A stretch of 64,000 nt of DNA from Lysobacterales bacterium PRO7 (GTDB lineage Bacteria > Pseudomonadota > Gammaproteobacteria > Xanthomonadales > Rhodanobacteraceae): contig QWHH01000010.1 in NCBI GenBank assembly GCA_021404785.1, positions 1-64,000 of the forward strand. Reading direction: 5' to 3'. Shown here piece by piece: positions 21,393-49,954 of the stretch; the first letter of the stretch is position 1; every line of letters starts with the position of its first letter. The notes below the pieces were generated by a model. The model ran no database searches and had not been told where the DNA came from. It saw nothing but the letters and a program-made list of their open reading frames with translations. Position numbers and translations under genes: made by a program.

Positions 21393-21947
21393 ATGCTTAC
21401 GCCGCAGACGCCGATCACCGCGTTGTTGCACGCCTGGCGCGACGGCGATGCCGGCGCGCTGCCGCAATTGACCGAGCTGGTCTACGCGCACCTGCGCACG
21501 CTTGCGCGCCAGCGCATGCGCGGCGCAGAGCCGTCCACGCTGGATCCGACGGCGCTGGTGCACGAGAGCTTCCTGCGCCTGTGCAACGCGGACGTGGATT
21601 GGCGCGATCGCGCGCATTTCTTCGCGCTCGCCGCACTGCACATGCGCAACGTGCTGATCGACCACGCGCGCGCACGCGACGCGGACAAGCGTGGCGGCGG
21701 CGCGGTCCACATCACCTTGACCGCAGATGCGGCGTCGGCGTCCGCAACGCCGGAATTGCTGGCACTGGACGCGGCCTTGCGCCGGCTCGAGGACGAGGAC
21801 GCGCGCACCGGCAAGATCATCGAGCTGACCTATTTCGGCGGATTGAACCGCGACGAGATCGCGCACGTGCTCGCGGTATCCGTGCCGACGGTCGATCGCG
21901 GCCTGCGCTTTGGACGGGCGTGGCTGAAGCGCGAACTGGCCGCTTAG
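21393..21947 (+). CDS. ECF RNA polymerase sigma factor (TIGR02999 type)
   Basis: 184 aa. Region 2 contains ELVYAHLRTLARQRM and DPTALVHESFLRL, with RNVLIDHARAR as region 2.4. Region 4 contains ELTYFGGLNRDEIAHVLAVSVPTVDRGLRFGRAWLKREL. This fits the TIGR02999 group of ECF-like sigma factors, which are usually paired with receptor-type Ser/Thr kinases rather than a classical anti-sigma factor. In Xanthomonas citri and Vibrio, as I recall, such sigma factors are activated by kinase phosphorylation. The kinase gene begins eight bases after the stop, which supports the pairing. Confidence 0.88.
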   Translation: MLTPQTPITALLHAWRDGDAGALPQLTELVYAHLRTLARQRMRGAEPSTLDPTALVHESFLRLCNADVDWRDRAHFFALAALHMRNVLIDHARARDADKRGGGAVHITLTADAASASATPELLALDAALRRLEDEDARTGKIIELTYFGGLNRDEIAHVLAVSVPTVDRGLRFGRAWLKRELAA

Positions 21948-21954
21948 GCTTGCC

Positions 21955-24747
21955 GTGAGCCGATTCCAGCGACTACAGGAACTGTTCGATGCCGCCGTAT
22001 TGCTGGCGCCGGAGGCGCGCGCGCGATTCCTCGACGACGCATGCGCGGCAGACGCGGAGTTGCGCGCCGAACTCGAAGGCCTGCTGGCCGCCGATGCGCG
22101 GGCGCATGATCCGCTCGCAGCGAGCGTCGCCCACGGCACGGCGGAACACTTCGATGACACGGCGCCATGGCTCGGGCGACGCATCGGCAATTACCGCATC
22201 CTGCGCGAACTCGGCCGCGGCGGCATGGGTAGCGTGTTCCTCGCCGAGCGCGCCGATGCCGAATACGAAAGTCGCGTAGCGATCAAGCTGATCCGCGGCT
22301 TCCCGACCTCGGCCGCGCTGGAACGCCTGCGTCGAGAACGCCAACTGCTCGCCGGCCTCGTGCATCCGCACATCGCGCGCCTGCTCGACGGCGGCACCAC
22401 CGACGAAGGTCAGCCGTACCTGGTGATGGAATATGTCAACGGCGTATTGCTTGCGCAATGGCTGGACGCGAACCGGCCGCCGCTGGCGCAACGCCTGCGC
22501 CTGTTCCAGCAGTTGTGCGCGGCCGTGCATCACGCCCACCAGAACCTGATCGTGCACAGCGACCTCAAGCCCGCCAACGTGATGGTGCGACGCGACGGCA
22601 CACCGGCGCTGCTCGACTTCGGCATCGCGCGACTGAACGCACCGGATGCGAACGGCGAACGCGCGACTGAACTGCGCGCGTTCACGCCCGACTACGCCAG
22701 TCCCGAACAACTCGGCGGCGCGGCGGTAACCACCGCGAGTGACGTGTACGCGCTGGGGCTGATCCTGTATGAATTGCTTTGTGGAAAAGTGTACAAATCC
22801 GGACGCAACGCCGAAAGCTGGCGCCAGGCGCGGCCGGGCCGTGTCGCGCGCACGGCGGAACAGGATTGGCTGCGCGCCGACGCCCCGCGCATCGACGGCG
22901 ATCTTGAGCATGTTGTGCGCCGCGCGCTGGACGAGGATCCGGCGCGGCGTTATCCATCGGCAGCAGCTCTGGCGGATGACATCGAACGCTACTTCGACGG
23001 CCGTGCGCTGGCCGCTGGTCCCGATCGCATCGGTTACCGCGTGGCCAAATTCGTGCGCCGGCATCGACTTGGCGTCGGCATCGCGGCACTCGCCCTCGCG
23101 GCCATCATCGGCGTGGCAGCGTGGCTGGCGGTCGAGCGCACACGCGCGTTGCGCGCGCAGGCGCAGGCGCGCAGCGAGGCGCATACCGCGAACGCGGTCA
23201 CCGATTTTCTGGTCGGCCTGTTCCAGGACGCCGATCCGCAGCAAACGCGCGGCCACGATGTCAGCGCGCGCGAACTTCTGGATCAGGCCAGCGCGCGGCT
23301 CGATGCCGCGCCGATAGCGCAGACCCGGGTGCAGGCGCGCCTGCTGACCGCGCTCGGCGAAATCTACATCAGCATCGGCCAGCCGCGGCGCAGCACCGAT
23401 CTGCTCGGCCGTGCGATCGTCCTGCTGCGCGCGCCGGGCAGCGATCCGCTGCGCCTGGCGCGCGCGCTGAATGAGGATTGTCGCGCCTGGTCCAGTGCGT
23501 CCGATCATGCCAAGGCACTGCCCGCGTGCCGCGAGGCGATCGCGCTGCGCGCTACGCGCCTGCCGAACAACGATGCGGATGTGGGTCACAGCCATAATGC
23601 GCTGGGCGTGGCCGAGCAGGGTGTCGGCGATTTCGATGCGGCTGAACGCGACTACCGTGCGGCACTGTCGATCTTTTCCGCCGCCGGCACGGCGTACCGT
23701 GGCGAGGTCGCCTCGACCCTGCACAATCTCGGTTTCCTCGCGTTTCATCGTGGCGATTACGCCAGGGCCCGGGATCTGTACACGCAGGCCTTGGCGGGCA
23801 AACGCGCCGTCTACGGCAACGATGATCCGCGCACGCTCACCACGCTCGACAACCTGGCCCAGGCCGAGGAGGAACTCGGCGATCTTGCTGCCGCCGAGCG
23901 TAATCTTTCCGAAGCGTTGACCCTGCAAATCAAGGTACTCGGCGCCGACAGCATCGCGGTCGCGCGCGCGCACAACGATCTGGCCAGCGTGCAGCAGGAT
24001 CGCGGCGAATATGCTGCCGCTGAAACGAACTACCGCGCCGCGCTGGACCTTGACACGCGCCTGGAGCCGCCCGGCTCGATGAGCTGGGCCGTCACCGCGA
24101 ACAATCTCGCCACGCTCGAAGAAGATCGCGGCGATTACGCTGCAGCCTTGCCATTATTCCGCGAGTCGCTGCGCATCCGCGAAGTGCACAACAAATCACC
24201 GAGCGCTTCGGTCGCGCGCGTGCAGAACAACCTGGCGCGCTGCGAACTGGAACTGGGCAACCTTGCCGCGGCGCGTCCGTTTATCGATGCGACGCTGGCG
24301 ACGCGGCGTGCGCTCAAGCTCGATCCGGCGCAGTTGCTCGATTCGCAACTGCTTGACGCGCAGTGGTTGGTGCGGTCGGGACGTTTGCACGAAGCCGCAG
24401 CAGCGCTGCACGCGCTGACACCACCGGATGGACGTGGCAACTATGGACGTCGTGCGCGTTATGCGATCGTGCAAGCCGAATTGGCCGCATCACATCACGA
24501 CTGGACGGCGGCATTGGCCGCGCAACGGCGCGCGCTGGATGCGTTGCATGGCGAACTCGGCGAACAGCATCCGGCGTATGCACGACTCGCGGCGCAGGCC
24601 GCGGCGTATGCGCACGCGGGCGGTGACGATGCGGCGGCGCGTTCGTTGCTGCAGCCGGCCTTGCCGATCATCAAGGCGTCGCTGGTCGAACACTCGCCGC
24701 AGCGGCGCGAGGCGGAAAAGCTCGCCGCAGTGTTGAAGATGCGCTAG
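21955..24747 (+). CDS. Transmembrane Ser/Thr protein kinase with C-terminal TPRs
   Basis: 930 aa, GTG start. An N-terminal helical segment (about 1-70) precedes a Hanks-type kinase domain (about 80-345): glycine loop GRGGMGSVF, Lys in VAIKLI, catalytic loop HSDLKPANV, DFG in LLDFGIARL and APE-like SPEQLG. The catalytic loop has Ser in place of the usual Arg of HRD, making it a non-RD kinase. One membrane helix lies near 365-390, then about 500 periplasmic residues of TPRs. The likely role is to sense outside conditions and phosphorylate the adjacent sigma factor (inference from family pairs). The stop lies one base from the prmA stop. Confidence 0.88.
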   Translation: MSRFQRLQELFDAAVLLAPEARARFLDDACAADAELRAELEGLLAADARAHDPLAASVAHGTAEHFDDTAPWLGRRIGNYRILRELGRGGMGSVFLAERADAEYESRVAIKLIRGFPTSAALERLRRERQLLAGLVHPHIARLLDGGTTDEGQPYLVMEYVNGVLLAQWLDANRPPLAQRLRLFQQLCAAVHHAHQNLIVHSDLKPANVMVRRDGTPALLDFGIARLNAPDANGERATELRAFTPDYASPEQLGGAAVTTASDVYALGLILYELLCGKVYKSGRNAESWRQARPGRVARTAEQDWLRADAPRIDGDLEHVVRRALDEDPARRYPSAAALADDIERYFDGRALAAGPDRIGYRVAKFVRRHRLGVGIAALALAAIIGVAAWLAVERTRALRAQAQARSEAHTANAVTDFLVGLFQDADPQQTRGHDVSARELLDQASARLDAAPIAQTRVQARLLTALGEIYISIGQPRRSTDLLGRAIVLLRAPGSDPLRLARALNEDCRAWSSASDHAKALPACREAIALRATRLPNNDADVGHSHNALGVAEQGVGDFDAAERDYRAALSIFSAAGTAYRGEVASTLHNLGFLAFHRGDYARARDLYTQALAGKRAVYGNDDPRTLTTLDNLAQAEEELGDLAAAERNLSEALTLQIKVLGADSIAVARAHNDLASVQQDRGEYAAAETNYRAALDLDTRLEPPGSMSWAVTANNLATLEEDRGDYAAALPLFRESLRIREVHNKSPSASVARVQNNLARCELELGNLAAARPFIDATLATRRALKLDPAQLLDSQLLDAQWLVRSGRLHEAAAALHALTPPDGRGNYGRRARYAIVQAELAASHHDWTAALAAQRRALDALHGELGEQHPAYARLAAQAAAYAHAGGDDAAARSLLQPALPIIKASLVEHSPQRREAEKLAAVLKMR

Positions 24748-36838: not shown

Positions 36839-36865
36839 AACGCCGGTTGCCGTCGAATTGCGACA
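36839..36865 (-). promoter_or_regulatory. ECF-type promoter element ahead of the 643-aa beta-helix gene
   Basis: On the minus strand TGTCGCAA (36865-36858), 13 bases, GGCGTT (36844-36839). Identical spacing and near-identical halves occur at 45084-45110, 46233-46259 and 49391-49417. The element sits 39 bases from the start codon. Confidence 0.65.
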
Positions 36866-36892
36866 TTCGACGGTCGCGGGACAGGCAAGATC

Positions 36893-36918
36893 AAAACCCA
36901 CTCAGCGATGCGGGTTTT
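36893..36918 (-). terminator. Weak hairpin terminator, probably of the GFA-family gene
   Basis: AAAACCC and GGGTTTT pair around a 12-base loop, flanked by A/T runs on both strands. It lies 48 bases beyond the stop of the minus-strand GFA gene and may act in both directions. The stem is only seven base pairs. Confidence 0.5.
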
Positions 36919-36965
36919 TTAGCCGGCGTTTCGACAGCGGCTTGAAAAATTCGTGCAGAGGCTTT

Positions 36966-37397
36966 TCAGCATGCCGCTTTGAACTCGACACTGGGAATCC
37001 ATTTGCGCGCGCGTCGTGCAAGGCGCGTGGCTTCGTCCTCGTCGTCCAGCGTTACCGATGTGCGCTGCAGCAGCGACGGGTCCACATCTTCGAAGGTATT
37101 GACGTTGACCACGGCGTAGACGCTGCCGTCAATTTCGCTGGTGACGACCGGCACGCCGCCGCATGTCGCGCAGACATGAAACGCGGCCGTCTTTGTTCCG
37201 AATCGGTAGGCAGACACGGCGGATGGATTTCGTACCCTCACGACGAGCGAGCCGGTGGGACAGGCGGTCCACACGCCGCCGTGCTTGACGCAGAACGAAC
37301 ACGTGCAGGCACGCGCGGGAATCTGCGCCGGCTCCGGCGTCCAGTCCAGCTCGAATCCGATGTTGCCGCAGTGGCAGCGTCCGCAAATCAGCATCAC
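36966..37397 (-). CDS. GFA (CENP-V) family protein
   Basis: 143 aa. It belongs to the family named after a glutathione-dependent formaldehyde-activating enzyme. Zinc-ligand cysteines are visible in CGRCHCGNI, CTCSFCVKHGG and CATCGG. The substrate of most members is unknown, and formaldehyde chemistry should not be assumed. It stands alone, with no clear operon partner. Start is the ATG at 37397, with a second in-frame ATG next to it. Confidence 0.82.
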   Translation of the reverse strand: MMLICGRCHCGNIGFELDWTPEPAQIPARACTCSFCVKHGGVWTACPTGSLVVRVRNPSAVSAYRFGTKTAAFHVCATCGGVPVVTSEIDGSVYAVVNVNTFEDVDPSLLQRTSVTLDDEDEATRLARRARKWIPSVEFKAAC

Positions 37398-37484
37398 TCA
37401 TCCCGGGCAACTGCACTTGAGTCGCTTCACACCGCAATCAGTGTGCGCTGATGGCGTGTGTGGTGGACGCAGCATCCCCGCCAT

Positions 37485-39707
37485 TCACGGCGAGCCGCCG
37501 AAGCCGTCCTTGAAGATGATGTCATTGCCGAGCTGGCAAACCGCCGGTTCGCTGGACTGGAACAGTGCGCTTGTAGCCCATTCCGGATGATCGACGAACG
37601 GGTTGCGGTTGCCCTGGAAACTCTGGATCACGTCGTTGCGTGCGACTTCGTCGGCATCCGGCGGATCCTGCGTGTTCCAGGCGAGCAGATCGGTGAGCAG
37701 GCCCATGTAGGCCTTGGACGCGGTGTTGGGAGTGATCACGATCAGGCTGCGGTTGTCGGTCAATTCAAGGTCGGGGATCACGCCGTCGTGGGCGGCTTCG
37801 CTGGCGATGCCTTCGTAGCGGATCGCCATGTAGAACATCGCACGCGCCATCTCGCCCTTGCGATGGTTCCAGACTTCGAACGAACCAGCGTTGCCGTCGG
37901 GCGTCTTGTACCAGTTGGAATTGCCCGCATACACGCCGCTGCCGCCGCCGAAGCCGTTGTTGAAGTCGGTGGTCAGTTCGCTGCAACCGCTGGCGCAGTT
38001 CGCATACGGCTTGTTGCCGCGGCTCGCGTTCTGGCTGGTGTCCGACAGCCATAGCATGTGCGTGTCGGTGTAGGCGGCAAGGCTCGAATTGGCGAAACCG
38101 AGCGAATTCGGCCAGGCGTGTTCGCGATTGTAGGTCAGGCCGCTGCCGGTTCCCGCGCGATCGCTGACCGCCGTGTAGGAATGGTTGCGATACACGTCGA
38201 TGATCTTGGCCGGATTGTTCGGATCCTGTTGCGCGATTTCGAGGATCGTCCAGACGTTTTGTGCGCCGCCGCTGTACAGATAAATCGTGTGACCCTTGAT
38301 GGTCTGATGCAGCGAGCAGCGCAACTGTTCCGGGCTGCTGGTATTGACGTTGCCATAGTAGCCGCCGAGCGTGCCCGAGGCGACGGTGAAGCTCGCCGAG
38401 TAATCTGCTTGCAGCGCGATGTTGTCCGTGTCGTGTACGCTGGTCGCGGTGATCGTGAACACGCAAACCTTGCCGGCGGGCAGCACCGTGTACGGGGTCA
38501 GCGTGCGCAGCGCGCCGCTGCCGGTTTCGGCAAGCTGGATTGGCGTCGAGTCGCAGGACAGCGCGAACGCGTTCGAGGTCGTCACCGCCTCGCTGAACGT
38601 CACGCGAATGTCGCTCGCGATCGGTACGTTGGTGGCGCCGTTGGCCGGCTGCGTGGAGACGACGGTTGGCGGCTGCGCGGACGGATCGAGCGTAGTAAAC
38701 GATACGGTGTAGTCGCTGGCCGGATGATCGGGCGTGCCGTCCTGATCGACAACGCCAGCGGCGAGAATCGTCCAGCTGCAGCTTTCATTCGCGGCGAACG
38801 CAGGCGATGGCGTGAGCGTGTAGGCGCTCGTGCCGCTGGTCACCGTGGCAGTGTGTGCGCCCGACACCGTGCATTGGATCGTGTACCACGGATCGGACAC
38901 CGTGACCGGCTCGCTGAAGCTCACCGCCAGCGTTGCCGACGGCGAAAAATTGCCCGTGCCCGACGTCGGCACGGTCGCAACAACGAACGGCGCCACGTCT
39001 GCCGGCGGCGTGCCGTCGACGCCGAAGCTGATGTCATCGATGGCGAGGCCGTCGTCGTTGCCGGATACGTCAAGATCGACCCAACGCACCCAGATGGTAC
39101 CGGATGGCGCGAGACTCAATCCCGTGATCGACGCCGAAATCGCGGTGCGGTTCGCGGCGGCGTTGCCATCGAGCGCAGCGGCGGTCGCCGAAGTGTTGGG
39201 CGAGCTGAAATCCAACGCATCGACGTCGACCCATGTTGCGGACGCGTCGGTCAGCGAAGTCGCATTGGTGCTGTACTGGAAATCGAGCCGGTCCGCGATG
39301 CCGCTTCCGCCGACGCGCCACTGCTCGCCCGTGTAGGCAACGGCAATCGTGGTCAGCGTGTTGCTCGTGTCGTTGCGCAAGCGCGCGCCAATGGTCGAGG
39401 CCAGCTTGCCCGATTGCAGTGTGCCGAGCGCGCGGTCGCTGCTGCCGGTCGACCCGAAACTGTAGGTGTCGCCGGTATTGGAGGTGCCGTCGCCAGCGGC
39501 ATACGTGGCGTTAGCGTTCTGCTTGGATTCGGCGAAATACCAGCCGCTCGGCAGCGTGCTGCCAGTGCCGGCAGCGGGCAGGCTGTCGAAGGTCTGCACC
39601 GGCGGCGCGCCGCCGACCAGCGAAACATCCTGCGCAAACGCCGCCGGCGCGATGAAAGCAAAAAAGGATACGAGCGCGGCACGCGCCGCGATGGATTGGA
39701 TATGCAT
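37485..39707 (-). CDS. Secreted endonuclease I-family protein with Ig-like domains and GF tail
   Basis: 740 aa. The signal peptide is MHIQSIAARAALVSFFAFIAPAAFA. A jelly-roll-like N-terminal domain (about 30-250) has choice-of-anchor character. Two Big_5-type Ig-like domains follow (ATVPTSGTGNFSPSATLAVSF, STQPANGATNVPIASDIRV). An endonuclease I domain (about 475-720) carries the catalytic NREHAWPNS motif and NWYKTPDGNAG, and the protein ends CQLGNDIIFKDGFGGSP. It is likely an extracellular nuclease for DNA or RNA. The ATG at 39707 starts the signal peptide; an in-frame ATG nine codons upstream follows a run of eight C. Confidence 0.82.
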   Translation of the reverse strand: MHIQSIAARAALVSFFAFIAPAAFAQDVSLVGGAPPVQTFDSLPAAGTGSTLPSGWYFAESKQNANATYAAGDGTSNTGDTYSFGSTGSSDRALGTLQSGKLASTIGARLRNDTSNTLTTIAVAYTGEQWRVGGSGIADRLDFQYSTNATSLTDASATWVDVDALDFSSPNTSATAAALDGNAAANRTAISASITGLSLAPSGTIWVRWVDLDVSGNDDGLAIDDISFGVDGTPPADVAPFVVATVPTSGTGNFSPSATLAVSFSEPVTVSDPWYTIQCTVSGAHTATVTSGTSAYTLTPSPAFAANESCSWTILAAGVVDQDGTPDHPASDYTVSFTTLDPSAQPPTVVSTQPANGATNVPIASDIRVTFSEAVTTSNAFALSCDSTPIQLAETGSGALRTLTPYTVLPAGKVCVFTITATSVHDTDNIALQADYSASFTVASGTLGGYYGNVNTSSPEQLRCSLHQTIKGHTIYLYSGGAQNVWTILEIAQQDPNNPAKIIDVYRNHSYTAVSDRAGTGSGLTYNREHAWPNSLGFANSSLAAYTDTHMLWLSDTSQNASRGNKPYANCASGCSELTTDFNNGFGGGSGVYAGNSNWYKTPDGNAGSFEVWNHRKGEMARAMFYMAIRYEGIASEAAHDGVIPDLELTDNRSLIVITPNTASKAYMGLLTDLLAWNTQDPPDADEVARNDVIQSFQGNRNPFVDHPEWATSALFQSSEPAVCQLGNDIIFKDGFGGSP

Positions 39708-39789
39708 GGGCTCCCCAGCCTGAACATCCGCCATGGGGGGGGCGGATATGTTGGGCCGAGGATAGCGCATTTTGTGGATGGGCAGCCTG

Positions 39790-39795
39790 TATAAT
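39790..39795 (+). promoter_or_regulatory. -10 hexamer (TATAAT) of the gcvP leader
   Basis: A perfect TATAAT lies directly ahead of the glycine riboswitch. A start site near 39802 would include the whole first aptamer. The -35 is unclear. Confidence 0.6.
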
Positions 39796-39803
39796 CCGCC
39801 TTC

Positions 39804-40003
39804 CCACGCGGTGGAAGAAGCGGCGCAGCCGCTGCCGAAGGCGCAACGCCCGTAATCGCTCAGGCCCGATACCGCCGCGCGGAAAACTCTGGAGAGACCG
39901 GCCCGCAATGCATCGCGGCATCCGGCGCCGAAGGGGCAAGGAGTCCGGTGCTCGATCAAGAGCCGGCTTCGAAACTCTCAGGCAGAAGGACAGAGGGGCG
40001 CCC
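39804..40003 (+). promoter_or_regulatory. Tandem glycine riboswitch
   Basis: Two glycine-aptamer cores lie in the gcvP leader. Aptamer I holds GCCGAAGGCGCAA (39833-39845), then CGCTCAGGC and GATACCG. Aptamer II opens with GGAGAGACC (39891), then GCCGAAGGGGCAA and ACTCTCAGGCA followed by AGGACAGAGGGG. The short linker between them is typical of cooperative pairs. After aptamer II a GCGTGC/GCACGC hairpin (about 40005-40022) precedes the gcvP start. No U-run follows it, so control is more likely at translation than by termination. Glycine would switch on its own degradation. Confidence 0.93.
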
Positions 40004-40041
40004 CGCGTGCAGCTTCGCACGCGCTTATCGGTGCCCTTGCC

Positions 40042-42972
40042 ATGTCTTCCAAGAATCTTTCCCTGCACGACCTCGAGCAGCACGACGCCTTCATCGCCCG
40101 CCACATCGGTCCGGACGACGCCGAAATTGCTTCGATGCTGAAGACGGTCGGTTACGACTCGCTCGATGCACTGGTCGACGCCATCGTTCCCGCCGGCATC
40201 CGCCAGAAGAATCCGCTCGCGCTGGCGCCGGCGCTGACCGAAACCGATGCGCTGGCGAAAATCCGCGCGATCGCGGACAAGAACCAGGTGTTCCGTTCGT
40301 TCATCGGCCAGGGCTATTCCGGCACGCACACGCCGCTGGTCATCCTGCGCAACATCCTCGAAAACCCGGCGTGGTACACCGCGTACACGCCGTATCAGGC
40401 CGAGATTTCACAAGGCCGCATGGAAGCGCTGATCAATTTCCAGACAATGTGCGCGGATCTGACCGGCATGGAAATCGCCAACGCCTCGCTGCTGGATGAA
40501 GCCACCGCCGCGGCCGAGGCGATGACGCTGGCCAAGCGTTCCGCCAAAGCCAAGGGCAATGCCATCGTGGTGTTCGGCGACGCGCATCCGCAGACGATCG
40601 AGGTCATGCGCACGCGCGCCGAGCCGCTGGGCCTGACGATCAAGCAGGCCAATTCCGCCACCGAGTGGGATGCCGCGATCGCTGGGGACGATTATTTCGC
40701 CGCGCTGATCCAATATCCGGCGAGCAGCGGCTGGCTTATGGAATGGAGCGAGGAAGTCGCCAAGATCCATGCGAAACACGCGCTCGCGATCTTCGCGACC
40801 GACCTGCTCGCGCTGACCCTGCTCAAGCCGCCGGGCGAGATGGGCGCGGACATCGTCGTCGGCAATTCGCAGCGTTTCGGCGTGCCGTTCGGCTTCGGCG
40901 GCCCGCATGCCGCGTTCATGGCCTGCCGCGACGCGTTCAAGCGCTCGATGCCGGGGCGCCTGATCGGCGTGTCGGTCGATGCGCACGGCGACAAGGCCTA
41001 TCGCCTGACCTTGCAAACGCGCGAGCAACACATCCGCCGCGAAAAGGCGACCAGCAACATTTGCACCGCACAGGTGCTGCTTGCGGTCATGGCGTCGATG
41101 TACGCCGTCTACCACGGCCCCGAAGGCCTGACCCGCATCGCCGCGCGCGTCGCGCGCCTGACCGCGATCCTCGCGGCCGGCTTGCGCCAGCTCGGTTTTG
41201 ACCAGTCGCATCATCCCAGCGGTTTCGACACGATCAGCCTGAAAACCGACGCGCGCACCGACGCGCTCATGGCGCGTGCGGTGGCAATGGGTGCGAACCT
41301 GCGCAAGGCGTGGGACGGATACCTCTGCATCTCGCTGGATGAAACCACGACGCGCGCCGACATCGAATTGCTGTGGCGTATTTTCGGTGGCGATGATGCC
41401 AATTTGCCGGACATCGAGGCGCTCGACAAAACCGCGCCGTCGTTGATTCCGCAGGAATTGCGGCGCACCTCGAAGTTCCTGACGCATCCGGTGTTCAACA
41501 CGCACCACAGCGAGCACGAAATGTTGCGCTACCTGCGCCAGCTCGCCGACAAGGATCTGGCGATGGATCGCACCATGATCCCGCTCGGTTCGTGCACGAT
41601 GAAGTTGAACGCGACCGCCGAGATGATTCCGATCACTTGGCCGGAGTTCGCGAACATCCATCCGTTCGCGCCCGCCGAACAGTGGCGCGGCTACAAGGAA
41701 CTCATCGACGGCCTCGAAGCGATGCTGGTGGCGATCACCGGCTACGACGCGGTCAGCCTGCAACCCAATGCCGGCGCGCAGGGCGAATACGCAGGATTGC
41801 TCGCGATCCGCGCCTATCATCGCGCCAACGGTCAGGCGCAACGCGATGTGTGCCTGATCCCGGAATCCGCGCACGGCACGAATCCAGCGTCCGCGCAGAT
41901 GTGCGGCATGACGGTCGTGGTCACGAAGTGCGATGCGAACGGCAATGTCGATGTCGCCGACATCCGCGCCAAGGCCGAGAAACATGCCGACCGCCTCGCC
42001 GCGATCATGCTGACGTATCCGTCCACGCACGGCGTGTTCGAGGAAGACGTGGTCGAGATTTGCAATATCGTGCACCAGCACGGTGGGCAGGTGTACACCG
42101 ACGGCGCCAACCTCAATGCCTTGTGCGGCGTTGCGCGGCCCGGACGCTGGGGCTCGGACGTCTCGCACCTGAACCTGCACAAGACCTTTTGCATCCCGCA
42201 CGGCGGCGGCGGACCCGGCGTCGGCCCGTGCGCGGTGAAATCGCACCTCGCGCCGTACCTGCCGAAAGCATTCGGCGGCGAAGTCGGCGAACGCCACGGC
42301 GGTCTGGTCAGCGCAGCCACCTTCGGCTCGGCATCGATCCTGCCGATCTCGTGGATGTACATCACCCTGATGGGCCGCGAGGGAATCCTTAAAGCCACGC
42401 AGGCCGCGTTGCTGAATGCGAACTATTTGTCCAAACGCCTCGCGCCGCACTATCCGACGCTGTATACCGGCCGCAACGGACTTGTCGCGCACGAGTGCAT
42501 CCTCGACTTGCGCCCGCTCGAGAAAACCAGTGGCGTCAGCGCCGAGGATGTGGCCAAGCGCCTTGTCGATTTCGGCTTCCATGCGCCGACGCTCAGCTTC
42601 CCGGTCGCCGGCACGTTGATGGTCGAACCGACCGAATCCGAGTCCAAGCATGAACTGGATCGTTTCATCGATGCGATGATCCAGATTCGCGACGAAGTCC
42701 GCGCGATCGAAGATGGCCGCCTGGATCGCGACGACAATCCGCTGAAAAACGCGCCACACACAGCCGCGGCGGTGTCGGCGAGTGAATGGAAGCACGCCTA
42801 TCCGCGCGAACTCGCCGCGTTTCCGCTCGCGACGTTGCGCCAGCAGAAATACTGGCCGCCGGTCGCGCGCGTGGACAACGTCTACGGCGACAAGAACGTG
42901 TTCTGCTCGTGCGTGCCGATCGAGGAATTCGCCGGCGAGCCGGAAGCATTCAGCGAGCCGAATGTGATGTGA
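40042..42972 (+). CDS. gcvP: Glycine dehydrogenase (decarboxylating), P-protein of the glycine cleavage system
   Basis: 976 aa, the single-chain (homodimeric) form. It decarboxylates glycine and passes the aminomethyl group to the lipoyl H-protein. The N-terminal [21 protein letters not shown] and [11 protein letters not shown] blocks belong to the first half. The second half has the pyridoxal-phosphate Lys in [18 protein letters not shown]. The other components (gcvT, gcvH) are not in the window. It is governed by the upstream glycine riboswitch. Confidence 0.97.
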
Positions 42973-43009
42973 TGCGGTACGTGGCCCGGCCTTGAAAAAG
43001 GAAAATTCC

Positions 43010-43564
43010 GTGTTGAAAGTTAATCTCGGCAGCGGCGATCACAAGCTGAACGGCTGGCTGAACGTGGATATCGCAACCAAGGATGGTCCCGATCTGGTCG
43101 CGGATTTGTCGCAGCCGCTGCCCTTCGCCGACGCCGCGGTCGATTACATCCATACCGAGGATTTTTTCGCCGCACTCACACTCGATCAGGCCCATGATTT
43201 TTTGCGCGAATGCCGGCGCGTGCTGAAACCGCATGGCGTGATGCGTCTGCTTACGCCGGATCTGGAAAAGCTCGCGCACAAATACCTGGAGGATCCCGAT
43301 TGGTTGCTGAAGGTCTGGGATCACTTCGTCGGATTGCCGCTGAAGACCCGCTCGGCTTGTGAAATCTTCAATCTCGGCATGCGCCTGGGCGGCAAGTTTC
43401 ATTACGACCGGCCCACGCTGATCGGGATCGCCGCCGAATGCGGATTGCGCGCCTACGAAGTCGCCTTTGCGCAAAGCGAACACGAAGCATTGCGCGGTAT
43501 CGATTTACGCCGTCCCGAGGATGGTGTGAGCATGTACATGGAGTGCGTCCGCGCCAGGACTTGA
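43010..43564 (+). CDS. SAM-dependent methyltransferase-like protein
   Basis: 184 aa. It has a class I Rossmann start, KVNLGSGDHKLNGWLNVDI, then PFADAAVDYIHTEDFF and RRVLKPHGVMRLLTPDL, as in Methyltransf_11-type proteins that often act on sugars or lipids. The substrate is unknown. I chose the GTG at 43010, with AAGGA seven bases ahead, over a TTG at 42992. It is 37 bases after gcvP and may be read through from it. Confidence 0.75.
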   Translation: MLKVNLGSGDHKLNGWLNVDIATKDGPDLVADLSQPLPFADAAVDYIHTEDFFAALTLDQAHDFLRECRRVLKPHGVMRLLTPDLEKLAHKYLEDPDWLLKVWDHFVGLPLKTRSACEIFNLGMRLGGKFHYDRPTLIGIAAECGLRAYEVAFAQSEHEALRGIDLRRPEDGVSMYMECVRART

Positions 43565-43590
43565 GAACCCAGTGCGGGCACAGCCTGCAC

Positions 43591-45012
43591 TCACAGTGCC
43601 GCCAGGAACGCGGCCAGATCCTGTTTTTGTTGCGCATCTAGTCCGATGTTGAAGCGTGTGTCGTAGAAATTCACGACGTCCATCAGCGTCGCCGCCGAAC
43701 CGTTGTGGAAATACGGTGCGCGCGCGGCGAGGCCACGCAGGATCGCGCCCTTGAACTTGCCGATGTCGGCCCACTTGCCGGTGAGCAGCGCGCGCCCGGG
43801 ATCGGTGGTCTGCACGCTGGCGCCGGTCTGGTTGTTGGTCAGCGTGTAGAGCGGCATGTCCGGCGTGCGCCGCGCGGCGACGGTCAGGCCGATGTCAAGC
43901 GGCGCGCCGACCGAGTGATTGCCGACGTTTGGCGTGTCATGACAGGTGCTGCAGTGGCCCTGGATTGACGGCTGCCCGGTTACATCGTTTAAACCGGCGA
44001 CGCCGGTAATCGTGATCGGAAATGTGTTGAAAAGCACTTCACCGCGCTGGATTGCAGCGCGGGCGCGTTCGCTGCGGCCATTGCCGTGCTGCGTCGCCCA
44101 GGCGTCGAACAGGTGCATCGCGGACGGATCGAAGGCGGCGCCAGTCGGATCGGCGCCGAGCGCATCGTTGATGCCGACGTGGAAGCGCAGGTTGGCAAGC
44201 ACACGCGGCCCGCCGAGCGCGTCGTCGTTGTTGAGCAAGCCGGCATAGTCGTCGCGGATCTGCGCCGTGCTTAGCGAGGATTCGAAACCGACGATCTGCG
44301 CCAGTACAGCGGCGCTCGGCGCGGCTGCGCCCTGCGCATGGCCAAGTACCGCATCCTTCGCTTGCGAGGTCAGACTGGCGTCGAGATCGGCACTATCCAC
44401 CCCGGCATCCATCGGCGGGAGGAATGGCGCCGCGGTTTCGCGCCCGTCCCACATCACGGTGGTGAGAAAGCCGAGGTTGGTCGCAGGCAGCGGGCGCCGG
44501 AATAGCGACAGTTCCGCGGCACTCGCATAGTGGTACGGATCGTCCACGGCGGTCAGGCTGAACTGCGCATTGGCTGGAATCGGCAGGCCGACGCGTATCA
44601 GGCCGCGATTGAGCAGCATCGCGTAAGCGTTGCGGCGCGCCGCAACGGTGGATACATCGGCAAACGGCGAAACCGAACCATCGTTGGTACGGAAAATCGG
44701 ATCCGTGCCCTGGGTGGCACTAAAGCGTTGCTGCAATTCGGCTGGCGTAACCGTCCAGCCCTGCGCCTGGCGATGACAGCTGTTGCAACTGCGGCCGTTT
44801 GTGCCGAGGCTCTGGAAGAAAGGATTGCCGGTGTCGATCGTGCCCGCCGGCGTGAACGTGCGCAGCCAACCGCTGGCGTCGGGCGTCGTTAGCGGGTCGG
44901 GCGAGTTTCCATCCGGCGCTGCCGTGGCGCAGACGCTGGCGATCGCCAGCGCGAGCATGGTGAGGCGACGAAGCGGAGCGTTGCCCGGGGCGAAACATTC
45001 GCAAAGTGACAT
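43591..45012 (-). CDS. Di-haem cytochrome c peroxidase / MauG-family protein
   Basis: 473 aa. The signal peptide lies at about 1-32. Haem c sites are CNSCH at 76-80 and CSTCH in the C-terminal half, with the GKWADIGKFKGAILRGLAARAPYFHNG segment typical of the family. These periplasmic enzymes reduce peroxide or oxidise protein side chains using c-type cytochromes. GGAGG precedes the ATG at 45012. A TGTCGCA-N16-CGTT element (AGCGTT variant) lies 72-98 bases upstream. It is the last gene of the minus-strand island headed by an ECF sigma factor. Confidence 0.85.
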   Translation of the reverse strand: MSLCECFAPGNAPLRRLTMLALAIASVCATAAPDGNSPDPLTTPDASGWLRTFTPAGTIDTGNPFFQSLGTNGRSCNSCHRQAQGWTVTPAELQQRFSATQGTDPIFRTNDGSVSPFADVSTVAARRNAYAMLLNRGLIRVGLPIPANAQFSLTAVDDPYHYASAAELSLFRRPLPATNLGFLTTVMWDGRETAAPFLPPMDAGVDSADLDASLTSQAKDAVLGHAQGAAAPSAAVLAQIVGFESSLSTAQIRDDYAGLLNNDDALGGPRVLANLRFHVGINDALGADPTGAAFDPSAMHLFDAWATQHGNGRSERARAAIQRGEVLFNTFPITITGVAGLNDVTGQPSIQGHCSTCHDTPNVGNHSVGAPLDIGLTVAARRTPDMPLYTLTNNQTGASVQTTDPGRALLTGKWADIGKFKGAILRGLAARAPYFHNGSAATLMDVVNFYDTRFNIGLDAQQKQDLAAFLAAL

Positions 45013-45083
45013 GCTGATCCTCCGAATTGGTAGGCGGTGATCGTCGGCATGACGATTCGACAGATGCCCCTGCACGAACGATC

Positions 45084-45110
45084 AACGCTGCACGGCACGC
45101 ATTTGCGACA
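45084..45110 (-). promoter_or_regulatory. ECF-type promoter element ahead of the di-haem peroxidase gene
   Basis: On the minus strand TGTCGCAA (45110-45103), 13 bases, AGCGTT (45089-45084). It matches the other three copies in spacing; only the first base of the downstream half differs. Confidence 0.6.
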
Positions 45111-45132
45111 TGTGCGCGCGCCGCGCGCCGCG

Positions 45133-45405
45133 TCATTCCGCCGTGGTCGGATCGATGACGGTTTTCACTTCGGATACGCGATTGGCGGGAAACCCGCCCT
45201 GGCGCGCGTGCTCGCGAACCATCGACTCGTTCGGCGCGATGTAGACGCAGTAGATCTTGTCGCCGGTGACGTAGCTTTGCAGCCACTGGATCTGCGGCCC
45301 CATACCACTGAGCACACCGCAGGATTTCTGCGAGATTGCGTGCAGTTCTTGCGCCGAAAGTTTGCCGGCGCCGGGAATTTCGCGTTCGATGATGTACCTG
45401 GGCAT
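45133..45405 (-). CDS. DUF4242 small protein
   Basis: 90 aa. It starts MPRYIIEREIPGAGKLSAQELHAISQ and has IQWLQSYVTGDKIYCVYIAPNE, the pattern of the DUF4242 family of small ferredoxin-like-fold proteins. The biochemical role is unknown to me. AAGGAG precedes the ATG at 45405. It lies 43 bases after the MddA-like gene on the same strand and probably shares its ECF-type promoter. Confidence 0.78.
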   Translation of the reverse strand: MPRYIIEREIPGAGKLSAQELHAISQKSCGVLSGMGPQIQWLQSYVTGDKIYCVYIAPNESMVREHARQGGFPANRVSEVKTVIDPTTAE

Positions 45406-45448
45406 GATGGTCTCCTTGTTTCGGATCGAAAAGACGCTTGGCCAAATG

Positions 45449-46180
45449 TCAGGCCTTGCGTGGCAGCGGCACGAGCATGCGCACGCGGCGCTGATAGTCG
45501 CGGTAAGGTTCGCCGAGACTGGCGGCAAGATCGTGTTCTTCGAACTGCAGCGCGACCAGGATGTACGCCGTCGTTGCGATTGCGAAGACCAGGTGCGCGA
45601 GCGTCATTCTCGGTGTGGCCCAGAACGCGATGATGAAACCGAGCATGATCGGGTGCCGCACCACGCGGTAGAAGAACGGCGTGACGAATCCGGGCGGCGT
45701 GTAGGGAGTCCGGTGCCAATTCAGCCAGACCTGGCGCAGGCCAAACAAATCGAAGTGGCTGATCAGGAACGTGCCGATCAGCACCGTGGCCCAGCCGAGC
45801 ACGAACAGCGCCCTGAGAACGTCGCGGGCAACTGGGCTCTCGACCTGCCAGACCATCCCGCCGAGCGGACGCCATTGCCAGAACAGCAGGATCAGGGCAA
45901 GGCTTGAGAACAGCACATAGGTGCTGCGCTCGACCACAGCAGGCACGATACGCGTCCACCAGCGCTTGAACGCCGGCCGCGCCATCACGCTGTGCTGCAC
46001 GGCGAACACGCCGAGCAGGATCGCATCGACCAGCAACGCCTCGCCGAACGCAACGGATGGATCCGAATCCAGCGATACCGGCACGCCAAGACCGCCGACA
46101 AAGGCAATGGCGTACAAAAACGTGGCAAAGAAAATCAGATAGCAGAGTATCCCGTACAACAAAGCAAGCAGACGGCTCAT
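45449..46180 (-). CDS. mddA: MddA-like methanethiol S-methyltransferase (NnrU/isoprenylcysteine methyltransferase superfamily)
   Basis: A 243-residue membrane protein with five to six helices. It matches the MddA family in QHSVMARPAFKRWWTRIVP, ERSTYVLFSSLALILLFWQW and the C-terminal RHPIMLGF and EEHDLAASLGEPYRDYQ motifs of ICMT-like methyltransferases. MddA methylates methanethiol to dimethyl sulfide with SAM; the exact substrate here is inferred. GGAGG precedes the ATG at 46180. An ECF-type promoter element lies about 55-80 bases upstream, directly after the kinase stop. Confidence 0.78.
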   Translation of the reverse strand: MSRLLALLYGILCYLIFFATFLYAIAFVGGLGVPVSLDSDPSVAFGEALLVDAILLGVFAVQHSVMARPAFKRWWTRIVPAVVERSTYVLFSSLALILLFWQWRPLGGMVWQVESPVARDVLRALFVLGWATVLIGTFLISHFDLFGLRQVWLNWHRTPYTPPGFVTPFFYRVVRHPIMLGFIIAFWATPRMTLAHLVFAIATTAYILVALQFEEHDLAASLGEPYRDYQRRVRMLVPLPRKA

Positions 46181-46232
46181 GACGCACCTCCTCGAATGCC
46201 GGCCGGCGCCCAGTAACGCGGCGACTACGAGC

Positions 46233-46259
46233 AACGCCGGTTGACAGCGATTTGCGACA
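46233..46259 (-). promoter_or_regulatory. ECF-type promoter element ahead of the MddA-like gene
   Basis: On the minus strand TGTCGCAA (46259-46252), 13 bases, GGCGTT (46238-46233). It begins two bases after the kinase stop codon, so this gene has a promoter separate from the kinase transcript. Confidence 0.65.
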
Positions 46260-46260
46260 T

Positions 46261-49080
46261 TCAGTGCGACGGCGAATCCGGATACACGTCGGATCTGCCG
46301 GACAACTCACGCAGCAATTGCCTGGTCTGCGGCGCCAGTTCGCTGGCAGGCGCGCCGATGGCGATCGCATCGAGAGCGGCACGGCGGGCCTCATCCGTGC
46401 GCTTGAGGTCGTTCAGGATTTGCGCCTTCTGCACCAGCATCGCCACACGGCGTGCCTTTGCGTCCGGTTCCAGACGCTGCCAGTCGGCAAGCGTGCGCTC
46501 GATTTCATGCAGTGCGTCGGCGTTGCGGTTCGTCATCCACAATGCCTGCGCATAGCCGAAACGGATCAATGCGTCCTCGCGCGATGCGCTGCCACCGTCG
46601 CGGTCGAGCACGGCCAGGGCTTGCGCCGAGTCGTCCACGGCGGTCTTGTAATCGTGCTGTTTCACCGCGACGTTGGCCAGGGTCGAGAGCGAATAGGCCA
46701 CGGTCGGATGATCGCTGCCAAACAGCGCACGGCGTTCGGCCAGTGCCAGCGTCATTTGCTGTTTGGCCTCGTCCAGCCGGTCCTGCCGGTACAGCGACAT
46801 GCCCAGATTGTTGCGTGCGCGCGTACACACTTCGTTCTTGATTTGCGCGGTCGTGCAGATATCGATTGCCTTCTGGTAGTCGGCGTCGGCTTCGCTGAAG
46901 CGGCGTTGCGCGACGAAGATGCCGCCGCGGGCATCGAAGTCCTCGGCAACTTCCAGATGATCGTCGCCGCCGAAAACCTGACGGTCCATCGCGAGCGCCT
47001 GACCGATCAGGTTTTCGGCTTCGGGGAATCGCTCGGCACGTGCGACGATCTGCGCCAGATCGCGCAATGTGGCGGCGATGGCATCGTGCGGCGCCGTGTA
47101 GATGCGCTGCTTGAGCGCGAGCAATTCGCGGAAACGCGCCTCGGCTGCCGGCAGGTCGCCGACACCGTCTTGCGCCGTGGCGAGACTGCCGAGCGCGGCG
47201 ACATAGCGGTCGTCTTGCTGCGCATGCTGCGCGCGCCAGCGCGTCAGCATCGGAGTCAGCGTGGCGATCGCTTCCGGGTAGCGTTGCAGTTCGGCCAAGG
47301 TGTTGCCGATTTCGAACACCGCAGCAATCGCATCGGACGAGTCCTTGCCGAACACGCGCGTGGCTGTCGTGGCAGCTTCGCGCTGGTGCGCCAGCGCGGA
47401 GTCTGTCGCGCCGGTGGCGGCTTCCGCGGCGGCCAACGTGTCCAGTGCACGCACCAGCATGGGCGCAGGTTGCGCGCGCAACGACGTCAACTCCGCGTTG
47501 ATCGCGGCGATCGCTGCCGCGTTGTCGCCGGCGCGTTGCAGCGCCTGCGCGTGCAGGATGCGATCCGAGCGCGCCTGCGCTGGATCGGCGGCGAGCTTTT
47601 CCGCGCTGGCGAACAGCGTTTGCGCGCGCGTGAAATTGGCCAGAGACAGCTCCACCTTGCCGAGCGTGCGCGAAAAGTCCGCGCGCGTGCTCGCATCCAG
47701 ATCGTCTGCGGTGCTGAGCCGTTGCTGCGCGGCGGCAACGAGCGCGTCGGGAGTCGGGCGCTGGTTGCGCGGCAGGTGCGCGCTCGCCGCATCGAACACG
47801 CTGAGCAGAAAATCTCGCGTCGTATTCGCTCGCTGCGCTTGTTGCCGCGCCACGTTCGCTTGCCACAACGCCACGCCAAGCGCGGTGAGGATGCCGAGTA
47901 GGAACAATGCCGTCACCGCCACGCCGCCGCGATGACGTTGCACGAACTTGCGAGCCCGATAGGCACGCGAAGGCGGATGCGCAGCGACGGCGCGGCCGGA
48001 AAGGAAATTGTCGATGTCGTCGGCGAGCGCGCCAGCCGAGGCGTAGCGCCGCTGCGGTTCTTCGGCCAGCGCCTTGAGCAGGATGTTGTCAAGGTCGCCG
48101 CGCAACAGCTTGCGCAGGCGCGCACGCTCGATGCTCGGGACATTGCCGGAGACCGTTTCGTTGACGCGCGACGAAGGCCGGCGCGTCGGCGTGCCGCCGG
48201 GCCGCAGGCCCAGCAGCAGTTCGTGCAGCAGCACGCCGAGGCCGTACACGTCGGTCGCGGTGGTGATCGCGCCGCCGCGCAGTTGTTCCGGCGCGGCGTA
48301 GTCGGGCGTGAACACGCCGACGGTACCCGTCGAGTCCGTATTGTCTTCCTCGATCAGCTTGGCGATGCCGAAGTCGAGCAGTTTCACCGTACCGTCGGCC
48401 GCGACCAGGATGTTCGATGGCTTGATGTCGCGATGCACGATCAGATTCCGGTGCGCCTCGGCGACGGCGCGGCAGACGTCGACGAACAGGCGCACGCGTG
48501 CGCGCACGTCGAGGCCGCGCGTGTCCGCGTAGCGCGTGATCGGCACGCCGTCGACGTATTCCATGACCAGGTACGGAATGCCGGCCGCAGTAACGCCACC
48601 GTCGATCAGGCGCGCGATGTGCGGATGCTCCAGCGCCGCCAACACGCGCCGCTCGCGCTGGAACAGGCGCTGTTCCAGCTCCGAATACAGGCCGCGGCGC
48701 AGCAGCTTGATCGCGGCCTGCTGGCGGAAATCCGCATCCTCGCGCTCGCCGAGGAAAACCGCCGACATGCCGCCCTGGCCGAGCGCACGCACCAGGCGAA
48801 ACGCGCCGATGCGGCTGCCGATCAGCCCTTCGGGCGCCAGATCGCGCGCCGCCAGGCGCGCGGCGTGCTCGCCTGCGGCGGTGTCGAGAAATCCGTGGCT
48901 GTCGTGCGCGGCGAGCAGATCGCGCAGGCGCTCGCGCAGGCTCGCGTCGGCGATATGCGTTTCAAGCCAGTCCGCGCGCGTCTCGGGCGGCAGCTCGAGC
49001 AGCGCATCGAAAGCCTCGCGCAGGGCGTTTTGGGTAGTGGAATCGGTGGGCGGATCGGGCGCGGTCATGGCTTGAGCCAA
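46261..49080 (-). CDS. Transmembrane Ser/Thr protein kinase with C-terminal TPRs (second copy type)
   Basis: 939 aa. An N-terminal helical segment like that of the kinase at 21955 precedes the Hanks kinase domain (about 80-360): GQGGMSAVF, Lys in AAIKLL, the canonical catalytic loop IVHRDIKPSNILV, LLDFGIAKL and YAAPEQLRG. A membrane helix lies near 380-405, then a long periplasmic part with TPRs (for example ARNNLGMSLYRQDRLDEAKQ). It pairs with the ECF sigma factor at 49424-49954, separated by a small membrane-protein gene. The start could be at the first codon or at the ATG of MTAPDPP four codons in. Confidence 0.88.
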   Translation of the reverse strand: MAQAMTAPDPPTDSTTQNALREAFDALLELPPETRADWLETHIADASLRERLRDLLAAHDSHGFLDTAAGEHAARLAARDLAPEGLIGSRIGAFRLVRALGQGGMSAVFLGEREDADFRQQAAIKLLRRGLYSELEQRLFQRERRVLAALEHPHIARLIDGGVTAAGIPYLVMEYVDGVPITRYADTRGLDVRARVRLFVDVCRAVAEAHRNLIVHRDIKPSNILVAADGTVKLLDFGIAKLIEEDNTDSTGTVGVFTPDYAAPEQLRGGAITTATDVYGLGVLLHELLLGLRPGGTPTRRPSSRVNETVSGNVPSIERARLRKLLRGDLDNILLKALAEEPQRRYASAGALADDIDNFLSGRAVAAHPPSRAYRARKFVQRHRGGVAVTALFLLGILTALGVALWQANVARQQAQRANTTRDFLLSVFDAASAHLPRNQRPTPDALVAAAQQRLSTADDLDASTRADFSRTLGKVELSLANFTRAQTLFASAEKLAADPAQARSDRILHAQALQRAGDNAAAIAAINAELTSLRAQPAPMLVRALDTLAAAEAATGATDSALAHQREAATTATRVFGKDSSDAIAAVFEIGNTLAELQRYPEAIATLTPMLTRWRAQHAQQDDRYVAALGSLATAQDGVGDLPAAEARFRELLALKQRIYTAPHDAIAATLRDLAQIVARAERFPEAENLIGQALAMDRQVFGGDDHLEVAEDFDARGGIFVAQRRFSEADADYQKAIDICTTAQIKNEVCTRARNNLGMSLYRQDRLDEAKQQMTLALAERRALFGSDHPTVAYSLSTLANVAVKQHDYKTAVDDSAQALAVLDRDGGSASREDALIRFGYAQALWMTNRNADALHEIERTLADWQRLEPDAKARRVAMLVQKAQILNDLKRTDEARRAALDAIAIGAPASELAPQTRQLLRELSGRSDVYPDSPSH

Positions 49081-49134
49081 GCGGCTGCTGCCGCAATGCC
49101 TGACCGTCCAAAGCGTGCCACGCGATGCCTCCGA

Positions 49135-49323
49135 CTACTTCGAACGTGCCCAAACAAGCGCCACGATGGCGGCGCCAAGACACATACCTGTGCCGATGAG
49201 ATGCAGGAAATCCACTGGTCGAATGGTGGCGAGGGTCGGGCGATCGAGCAAGCTGAATAGGCCCAGGAGACCAAAGGCGGCGAGAACGAAGACGACTCGA
49301 AGTGGTTCGCGGCGTGAATTCAT
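49135..49323 (-). CDS. Small two-helix membrane protein between sigma factor and kinase genes
   Basis: 62 aa. It has two hydrophobic segments (VVFVLAAFGLLGLFSLL, about 10-26, and FLHLIGTGMCLGAAIVALVWA, about 39-58) separated by a short polar stretch, with Arg-rich ends. No family is recognised. AAGAGG lies about nine bases before the ATG at 49323. Its position between an ECF sigma factor and its kinase, directly behind an ECF-type promoter element, suggests a role in the same signalling unit, but that is inference from context. Confidence 0.55.
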   Translation of the reverse strand: MNSRREPLRVVFVLAAFGLLGLFSLLDRPTLATIRPVDFLHLIGTGMCLGAAIVALVWARSK

Positions 49324-49390
49324 GGATCAGTACCTCTTGAGTGTGGTGGACGAAGGGTCGCAACGCCATGTGGAGGCTAACGTTGCGATA

Positions 49391-49417
49391 AACGCCATTT
49401 CGCGACAGATTGCGACA
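49391..49417 (-). promoter_or_regulatory. ECF-type promoter element ahead of the small membrane protein and kinase genes
   Basis: On the minus strand TGTCGCAA (49417-49410), 13 bases, GGCGTT (49396-49391). It lies between the sigma-factor stop and the 62-aa gene, 68 bases from the latter's start, so the kinase can be transcribed separately from the sigma factor. Confidence 0.65.
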
Positions 49418-49423
49418 CGCGCG

Positions 49424-49954
49424 TCATGTCAGTGCGTCGTGCAGAAAGGCACGTGCGAACGCCCAGTCGCGATCCGCGGTGCGCCGGGTCACGCCGAGCT
49501 GTTCGGCCACCTGTTCCAGGGGCAGGCCGGCGAAGTAGCGCAACTCGACCACGCGTGCGGCGCGTGTGTCGGCGACTTCCAATCGCGTCAGCGCGGCATC
49601 CAGGGCCAGTGCGCTTTGCGCGTCGTCGATGGCGAGGCGGCCGTCGCTGCCGGTCAGGGTGACCGCGATCCAGCCGCCGCCGGCGCATTGGCGCAAGTGG
49701 TCGCGCGCGCGGTCGGCGAGCAGATGGCGCATGGCGCGCGCGGCGTAGGCGAAGAATTGCGCCGGGTGGGAAAACTTCAGTTCATCCTGCGCGCCAATAC
49801 GCAGATACAGTTCGTGCACCAGCGCAGTGGTGTCCAGCGTGCCGCGCTCCCGCGCGCCGAGCTGGCGCGCCGCCATCGCTTTCAGGCGCGCATAGACCGC
49901 ATCGAACAAGGCGTCCGCCGTTTCCGGTGCATTGCGCGAAGTGGACTCGGGCAT
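49424..49954 (-). CDS. ECF RNA polymerase sigma factor (TIGR02999 type)
   Basis: 176 aa. Region 2 includes YARLKAMAARQLGA and DTTALVHELYLRI with RHLLADRARDHLR; region 4 is ELRYFAGLPLEQVAEQLGVTRRTADRDWAFARAFLHDAL. It is the same type as the factor at 21393 and, like it, lies beside a TPR receptor kinase. No SnoaL-like C-terminal domain is present, so it is not an ECF41 factor. It is the best local candidate to read the TGTCGCA-N16-CGTT elements. A TAGAAT box lies six bases ahead of its ATG. Confidence 0.87.
   Translation of the reverse strand: MPESTSRNAPETADALFDAVYARLKAMAARQLGARERGTLDTTALVHELYLRIGAQDELKFSHPAQFFAYAARAMRHLLADRARDHLRQCAGGGWIAVTLTGSDGRLAIDDAQSALALDAALTRLEVADTRAARVVELRYFAGLPLEQVAEQLGVTRRTADRDWAFARAFLHDALT

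Follow-up and report, generated by a model that had tools for sequence, protein, structure and literature searches.

A conserved promoter-like motif at a kinase-linked ECF43-type sigma factor locus of Lysobacterales and its predicted regulon

Which protein reads the four copies of a bipartite, promoter-like motif, TGTCGCA-N16-CGTT, that are found in the first 64,000 nt of contig QWHH01000010.1 (positions 1-64,000, hereafter the window) of Lysobacterales bacterium PRO7, together with the genes of an extracytoplasmic function (ECF) sigma factor and a Ser/Thr kinase? An ECF-type promoter, a regulon and a link to the local sigma factor of the TIGR02999 type had been proposed in a sequence-only reading of this DNA, and all three are supported by the conservation of the site in the gap behind the sigma gene, by a matrix derived from foreign sites, by the gene families that recur behind the motif, by its co-occurrence with the sigma factor, and by the agreement of the -35 boxes within loci. 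Given this, it is highly probable (about 86%) that the ECF43-type sigma factor whose gene lies at 49424-49954 reads these four copies as promoters, together with a fifth that is found on another contig, in a system in which the linked kinase would be subject to feedback.

The observation of four promoter-like copies was confirmed, as all four are found on the minus strand exactly where they had been reported (Table 1), with identical 16-nt spacing, in intergenic positions, and oriented toward a start codon, which follows the end of the CGTT box at 38, 71, 52, and 67 nt for promoters 1 to 4, respectively. A mean of 0.07 copies is expected in the window, and none of 100 shuffles reaches four. 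The earlier statement that no other copy has this spacing holds within the window and fails for the genome as a whole (2.81 Mb), where TGTCGCAA-N14-GCGTT has five exact copies, with none in the reversed control and zero exact copies of the full motif when the spacer is one base shorter. The fifth genomic copy (G000:C4:151196-151222) is located 33 nt 5' of the start codon (ATG) of a gene for a further secreted repeat protein and 13 nt 3' of the stop codon of a gene which, by recognition alone, we take to be relA/spoT-like.

Further evidence comes from related genomes, in which the footprinting check suggested in the sequence-only reading was run, and in which both the site and its spacing are conserved in the gap between the sigma and kinase genes. 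In a scan of named genomes, relatives of the sigma factor were found at 69 loci, mostly of the Lysobacterales (Rudaea, Dokdonella, Rhodanobacter, Aquimonas, Pseudofulvimonas, Chiayiivirga, and Pseudoxanthomonas), and 43 loci of other genomes with a sigma identity of at least 57% and enough sequence were taken as the orthologue set. The layout of the window recurs in the cultured species Rhodanobacter spathiphylli, Dokdonella immobilis, Chiayiivirga flava, and Aquimonas voraii. The gap stretch, whose limits are set 15 nt before and 75 nt past the sigma stop codon, contains TGTCGCA-N16-CGTT with up to one, two, or three mismatches in 14, 24, and 34 of these 43 loci, respectively, compared with 1, 6, and 17 for the best other spacer (10-22), 0, 0, and 2 for the reverse complement, and means of 0.02, 0.3, and 2.9 for shuffled sequences. 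Thinning the set to at most 80% mutual identity leaves the motif in 12, 18, and 24 of 31 loci, and 22 more distant loci have it in 2, 3, and 5 cases. Bases that played no part in the selection are also conserved, i.e., C20 in 28 of the 34 sites and the GG at positions 21-22 in 30 and 29 of them, which gives an extended consensus of TGTCGCAA-N8-C-N3-CGGCGTT for the foreign gap sites. Promoter 4, which begins 6 nt past the sigma stop codon, occupies the equivalent place in the window.

A matrix built from these 34 foreign gap sites was then applied to both strands of the window, where the four copies rank first to fourth, followed by a site that scores 13.7, while the best site obtained with 30 permuted matrices scores 19.8. 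In 63 loci of the same genome, drawn from the bare-pattern, short-spacer, and near-match searches (the near matches being the first 100 of 117), only the five copies score 20 or more, and the next site reaches 18.7. The 89 loci that were fetched, some of which overlap, amount to 1.20 Mb and contain 78 matches of at least 17 with the overlaps included, as against 2 for the reversed matrix and a mean of 1.55 (maximum 4) for permuted ones. The matches of this strength in the 69 sigma loci are on the sigma strand in 52 cases and on the opposite strand in one (L181), which precedes a divergent beta-helix gene. At a score of at least 16, a site is found just past the sigma stop codon in 33 of the 43 orthologous loci, a count that is not independent because the matrix was trained on gap sites, while post-kinase sites, which were not used in the training, are found in 18, and one or the other in 37. 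No site of this score lies upstream of the sigma gene on its own strand in any of the 43 loci, and the sigma factor is therefore not generally autoregulated; a weak site is present 44 nt before the sigma gene in the more distant locus L186.

The genes behind the motif also recur. When unique sites with a score of at least 16 are considered, 66 of 78 precede a homologue of a protein of the window regulon, which is a kinase at 36 sites, a beta-helix protein at 18 (that of L003 included), a di-haem peroxidase at seven, a DUF4242 protein at three, and an MddA-like protein at two. Homologues of the window proteins are found behind the motif at 16 other sites for the beta-helix family and at six others for the peroxidase family, and the MddA-like homologues match at 76.5% (L139) and 56% (L243). 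Among the remaining 12 sites are that of the window kinase operon and those in front of a kinase truncated at the end of a contig, a kelch protein (L134), and a protein with weak similarity to heparinases (L132). Sites that are unlinked to the sigma gene repeat this picture: those of genome G031 precede a kinase, a beta-helix protein, a DUF4242 protein, a kelch protein, and two further secreted-looking proteins, and those of G137 precede an MddA-like gene and a beta-helix protein that resembles the one of L003. In G031, there is no kinase homologue in the 16 kb around the sigma gene and no sigma gene in the 12 kb around the kinase, yet the ATG of this kinase is preceded by the motif at a distance of 10 nt.

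The presence of the motif can also be compared with that of the sigma factor in 299 genomes of the order, in which the sigma factor was counted as present at an E-value of 1e-48 or better; in part of this comparison, the best 11 first-look candidates per genome were scored. The strict form TGTCGCA-N14-GGCGTT is found in 14 of 22 sigma-bearing genomes (31 sites) as compared with 29 of the 277 that lack the sigma factor (34 sites; Fisher p 2.9e-8), or in 13 of 21 sigma-bearing genomes (27 sites) if the genome of the window is excluded, and the genomes without the sigma factor are at background, given that the reversed control yields 40 sites in the 299 genomes. When the motif label is mapped onto a tree of 67 sigma proteins, eight changes are required, compared with 21.8 for shuffled labels, and the motif is present in 37 of the 42 rows of the clade of the window sigma factor (support 94). 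The -35 box itself varies in this set (TGTCGC, TGTCCC, TGACAC, and TGGCGG), and the box of the kinase promoter agrees with those of the other promoters of its own locus in 104.5 of 112 comparisons from 16 multi-site loci, a value reached by none of 5000 shuffles (mean 92.4, maximum 103.5). This is as expected if one protein reads all the promoters of a locus while its specificity drifts.

The window sigma factor matches TIGR02999 with 163.2 bits (cut-off 126.15) up to residue 175 and PF07638 with 127.9 bits; we take TIGR02999 to be equivalent to ECF43. The acidic DAED of region 2.2 is replaced by DTTA, which leaves a single acidic residue (D), and T42 and T43 are invariant across 13 aligned sequences. 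The next large gene encodes a kinase (Pkinase, 2.5e-39; HRDIKPSN and DFG present) whose kinase domain is N-terminal and which also has TPR repeats and, as judged by eye, a single membrane segment. No anti-sigma family match was found in the seven window proteins scanned. In the parts consulted of two reviews and a 2026 paper, ECF43 comprises sigma factors with a linked Hanks kinase, in which threonine phosphorylation is held to permit polymerase binding (PMC8999054, PMC8103513, PMC13147305), and which carry an xTTA-type signature with the phospho-threonine in region 2.2 (PMC8999054, PMC13147305). The pairs described there, EcfP/PknT of Vibrio parahaemolyticus and EcfK/PknS of Xanthomonas citri (PMC8999054, PMC8103513, PMC13147305), are like the window pair in the sigma type, the TTA-like phospho-site in region 2.2, and the linked Ser/Thr kinase, whereas their published targets, type VI secretion and polymyxin resistance, differ from the window gene set. 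The window system differs further in that a conserved promoter can be deduced, with the kinase gene behind it, while no promoter of EcfP or EcfK was found in the parts consulted of PMC8999054, PMC8103513, and PMC13147305. The sequence-only reading had regarded a phospho-controlled sigma factor with this promoter specificity as new; phospho-control is a known principle, as ECF43 with a linked Hanks kinase is already described in these sources, and is predicted here for the window sigma factor; the promoter appears to be new in the literature searched.

The form of the motif is similar to that of the ECF41 promoter, which had been given correctly as TGTCACA-N16-CGTC, according to the part consulted of PMC3426412, from which all four copies differ in the fifth -35 base (G, not A) and in the -10 box (CGTT, not CGTC). 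ECF41 factors have a large C-terminal extension beyond sigma region 4, which the 176-aa window protein lacks, and no COE-type gene is present among the seven window proteins scanned. Membership in ECF41 was rejected on the absence of the extension and the different promoter.

From what was computed, namely the motif, its conservation, its location, its gene set, and its co-occurrence with the sigma clade, we infer the following scheme, in which the signal, phosphorylation, recognition by the sigma factor, the start sites, the feedback on the kinase, and what the targets do are all predictions. The -35 element would be TGTCGCA(A) and the -10 element (GG)CGTT, 16 bases apart in their short form. 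A signal would be perceived by the linked kinase by means of its C-terminal TPR part, whereupon the kinase would phosphorylate the threonine of the TTA motif in sigma region 2.2, so that the sigma factor could bind RNA polymerase. The active sigma factor would then transcribe the kinase gene, a positive feedback on its own activator, as well as a mostly envelope-directed set composed of beta-helix proteins, the di-haem peroxidase, the MddA-like membrane protein, and the DUF4242 protein. In the orthologous loci examined, the sigma gene has no motif promoter of its own. At even odds, the ECF43 clade of the Lysobacterales may form a self-amplifying switch, in which the sigma factor is not autoregulated, its activating kinase is a target, so that a first phosphorylation increases the amount of kinase and keeps the regulon switched on; the specificity for promoters would have drifted with the sigma factor through the four -35 variants to give naturally orthogonal sigma-promoter pairs, the kinase mRNA often being nearly leaderless and the targets having ordinary leaders.

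The distances to the start codons touch on this last point. The CGTT box lies at a median of 13 nt from the kinase start, and at no more than 14 nt in 20 of the 29 kinase sites parsed out of 36 (L143, L145, L163, L164, L174, L176, L178, L181, L197, and others); a sequence like a ribosome-binding site is present in eight. For the target genes, the median is 42 nt, and such a sequence is present in 29 of 35 open reading frames (ORFs), some of which are overlapping false frames. The kinase mRNA may often be leaderless.

A number of results weigh against assigning these sites to the sigma factor. The genome-wide check of the bare TGTCGCA-N15..17-CGTT form is at background level in the genome of the window, with 10 matches (six with spacer 16) and nine in the reversed control, and the full motif with up to two mismatches shows no excess (117, compared with 118 in the control); only the full motif at spacer 16 stands out there. 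The 57% identity cut was chosen after the loci had been seen, the sigma stop codon itself provides the TGA of a TGACAC gap site in some loci (L167, L178), and at a score of 16 both the gap site and the post-kinase site are absent in six of the 43 orthologous loci. The strict motif is missing in eight of the 22 sigma-bearing genomes, and in those loci with it that were fetched, it precedes a regulon homologue in three of 11 from sigma-bearing genomes (L212, L219, and L236; a further match at L217 is a false frame and was not counted) and in none of 17 from genomes without the sigma factor. The strict motif alone is no proof of a site. The training of the matrix on gap sites belongs to the same side, as does the outcome for recognition-helix residue 161, where the 21 loci with D include 19 that have G as the fifth -35 base, compared with four of the 14 loci with another residue (Fisher p 2.6e-4; the site of L181 was mis-assigned in this comparison), a link that is not upheld in a tree-aware test because the independent pairs are too few (only 1 to 5), and another region-4 column ranks higher.

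The motif might instead be the site of another regulator, or of another sigma factor, and its position near this sigma gene would then be due solely to the kinase operon being a target of that protein. This is unlikely, although recognition by the sigma factor is deduced, the genome has four matches to it at an E-value of 1e-15, and the window itself contains a second TIGR02999 sigma factor with its own kinase at 21468, given that this second module has no motif copy (best matrix score 8.6), that the motif follows the clade of the window sigma factor on the tree and its presence across genomes, and that the -35 variant shifts jointly in kinase and target promoters and tends to accompany region-4 residues. 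It is highly improbable that the copies are relics of an operon or mobile-element duplication with shared upstream sequence, as the occurrence of three of the four within 4.4 kb, in a single gene cluster, would suggest. This origin is largely refuted by the spacers, since the 34 gap sites have a mean pairwise identity of 0.34 in the inner spacer, compared with 0.76 in the boxes, so that sharing is confined to the boxes and the bases next to them, and in the 16 multi-site loci, spacers of the same locus do not resemble each other more than spacers from separate loci do; the genes behind the window sites also belong to unrelated families. Finally, chance recurrence of a GC-rich pattern in a single window, with which the background level of the loose forms would agree, has next to no probability, as it is refuted by the conservation in orthologous loci and by the foreign-trained matrix, and the count statistics of the window are also against it.

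Sigma factors activated by kinases have only recently been added to the picture of bacterial signalling, and to our knowledge few promoters and target genes have been described for them. The promoter presented here, its conserved regulon, and the place of the kinase in it are new as far as the open-licence literature was searched, in which TIGR02999 was not found, TGTCGCA gave no sigma-factor paper by title among the matches listed, and no ECF43 promoter was found among the matches listed and in parts of PMC13147305, PMC8999054, PMC8103513, and PMC3426412. The promoter, the conserved gene set, and the predicted feedback loop are open to direct testing with reporters, and the natural series of -35 variants offers material for the study of joint change in sigma region 4 and its promoter.

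Table 1. Positions of the predicted promoters, their genes, and neighbouring features in the window.
Feature	Coordinates	Strand	Details
Beta-helix protein, 643 aa	34869..36800	-	Signal-peptide-like N-terminal helix; tail DTIYCDGFEP
Promoter 1	36839..36865	-	Matrix score 28.3; before beta-helix protein gene
Terminator-like hairpin followed by T residues	36888..36919	-	Upstream of promoter 1; by eye
Di-haem cytochrome c peroxidase-like protein, 473 aa	43591..45012	-	Two CxxCH; family scan
Promoter 2	45084..45110	-	Matrix score 24.2; before di-haem peroxidase-like gene
DUF4242 / SCO4226-like protein, 90 aa	45133..45405	-	Family scan
MddA-like membrane protein, 243 aa	45449..46180	-	Pfam NnrU 24.0 bits, just below the cut-off of 24.7; PEMT weakly
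Promoter 3	46233..46259	-	Matrix score 25.1; before MddA-like and DUF4242 genes
Hanks-type Ser/Thr kinase, C-terminal TPR repeats	46261..49068	-	Met at 49068; family scan
Hydrophobic 62-aa ORF between promoter 4 and kinase	49135..49323	-	No family match
Promoter 4, TGTCGCAA-N14-GCGTT	49391..49417	-	Matrix score 20.2; before 62-aa ORF and kinase
ECF sigma factor, 176 aa, ECF43-type, TIGR02999	49424..49954	-	Sigma2.2 motif LDTTALVHELY
Second sigma-kinase module	21462..24747	+	TIGR02999 169 bits, 42% identical to the first sigma factor; DPTA motif, then kinase homologue

Promoter 3 begins 1 nt past the kinase stop codon. In G012 (L077), where the sigma part is 88% identical, a kinase-like start directly follows the sigma gene (by eye), unlike the layout of the window with its 62-aa ORF. 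In five loci of Pseudoxanthomonas and Luteimonas (L184, L186, L187, L188, and L190; sigma identity 49-51%), TGTC-N19-CGCT is found at the place of the gap site, which is possibly a -10 variant in these relatives.

With regard to the target proteins, the name MddA is the label given in the sequence-only reading, and the profile of the peroxidase matches solved di-haem enzymes (best 3.3e-11). The predicted model of the beta-helix protein has a mean predicted local distance difference test score (pLDDT) of 83.2, and its weak structure matches, which include polysaccharide-acting proteins, are mostly right-handed beta-helix proteins (PL6 alginate lyase, lacto-N-biosidase, rhombotarget A, and pectin methylesterase), which support the fold class only, given query template modelling (TM) scores of about 0.2-0.33 among the top rows. 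Regulon proteins frequently have C-terminal tails such as DTIYCDGFEP, DEIFGNGFE, DTIFANGFD, DRIFSNGWQ, and SLFADGFEAP (window 34869-36800; L003 1561-2940; L132; L240; L242), which are perhaps a shared sorting tail.

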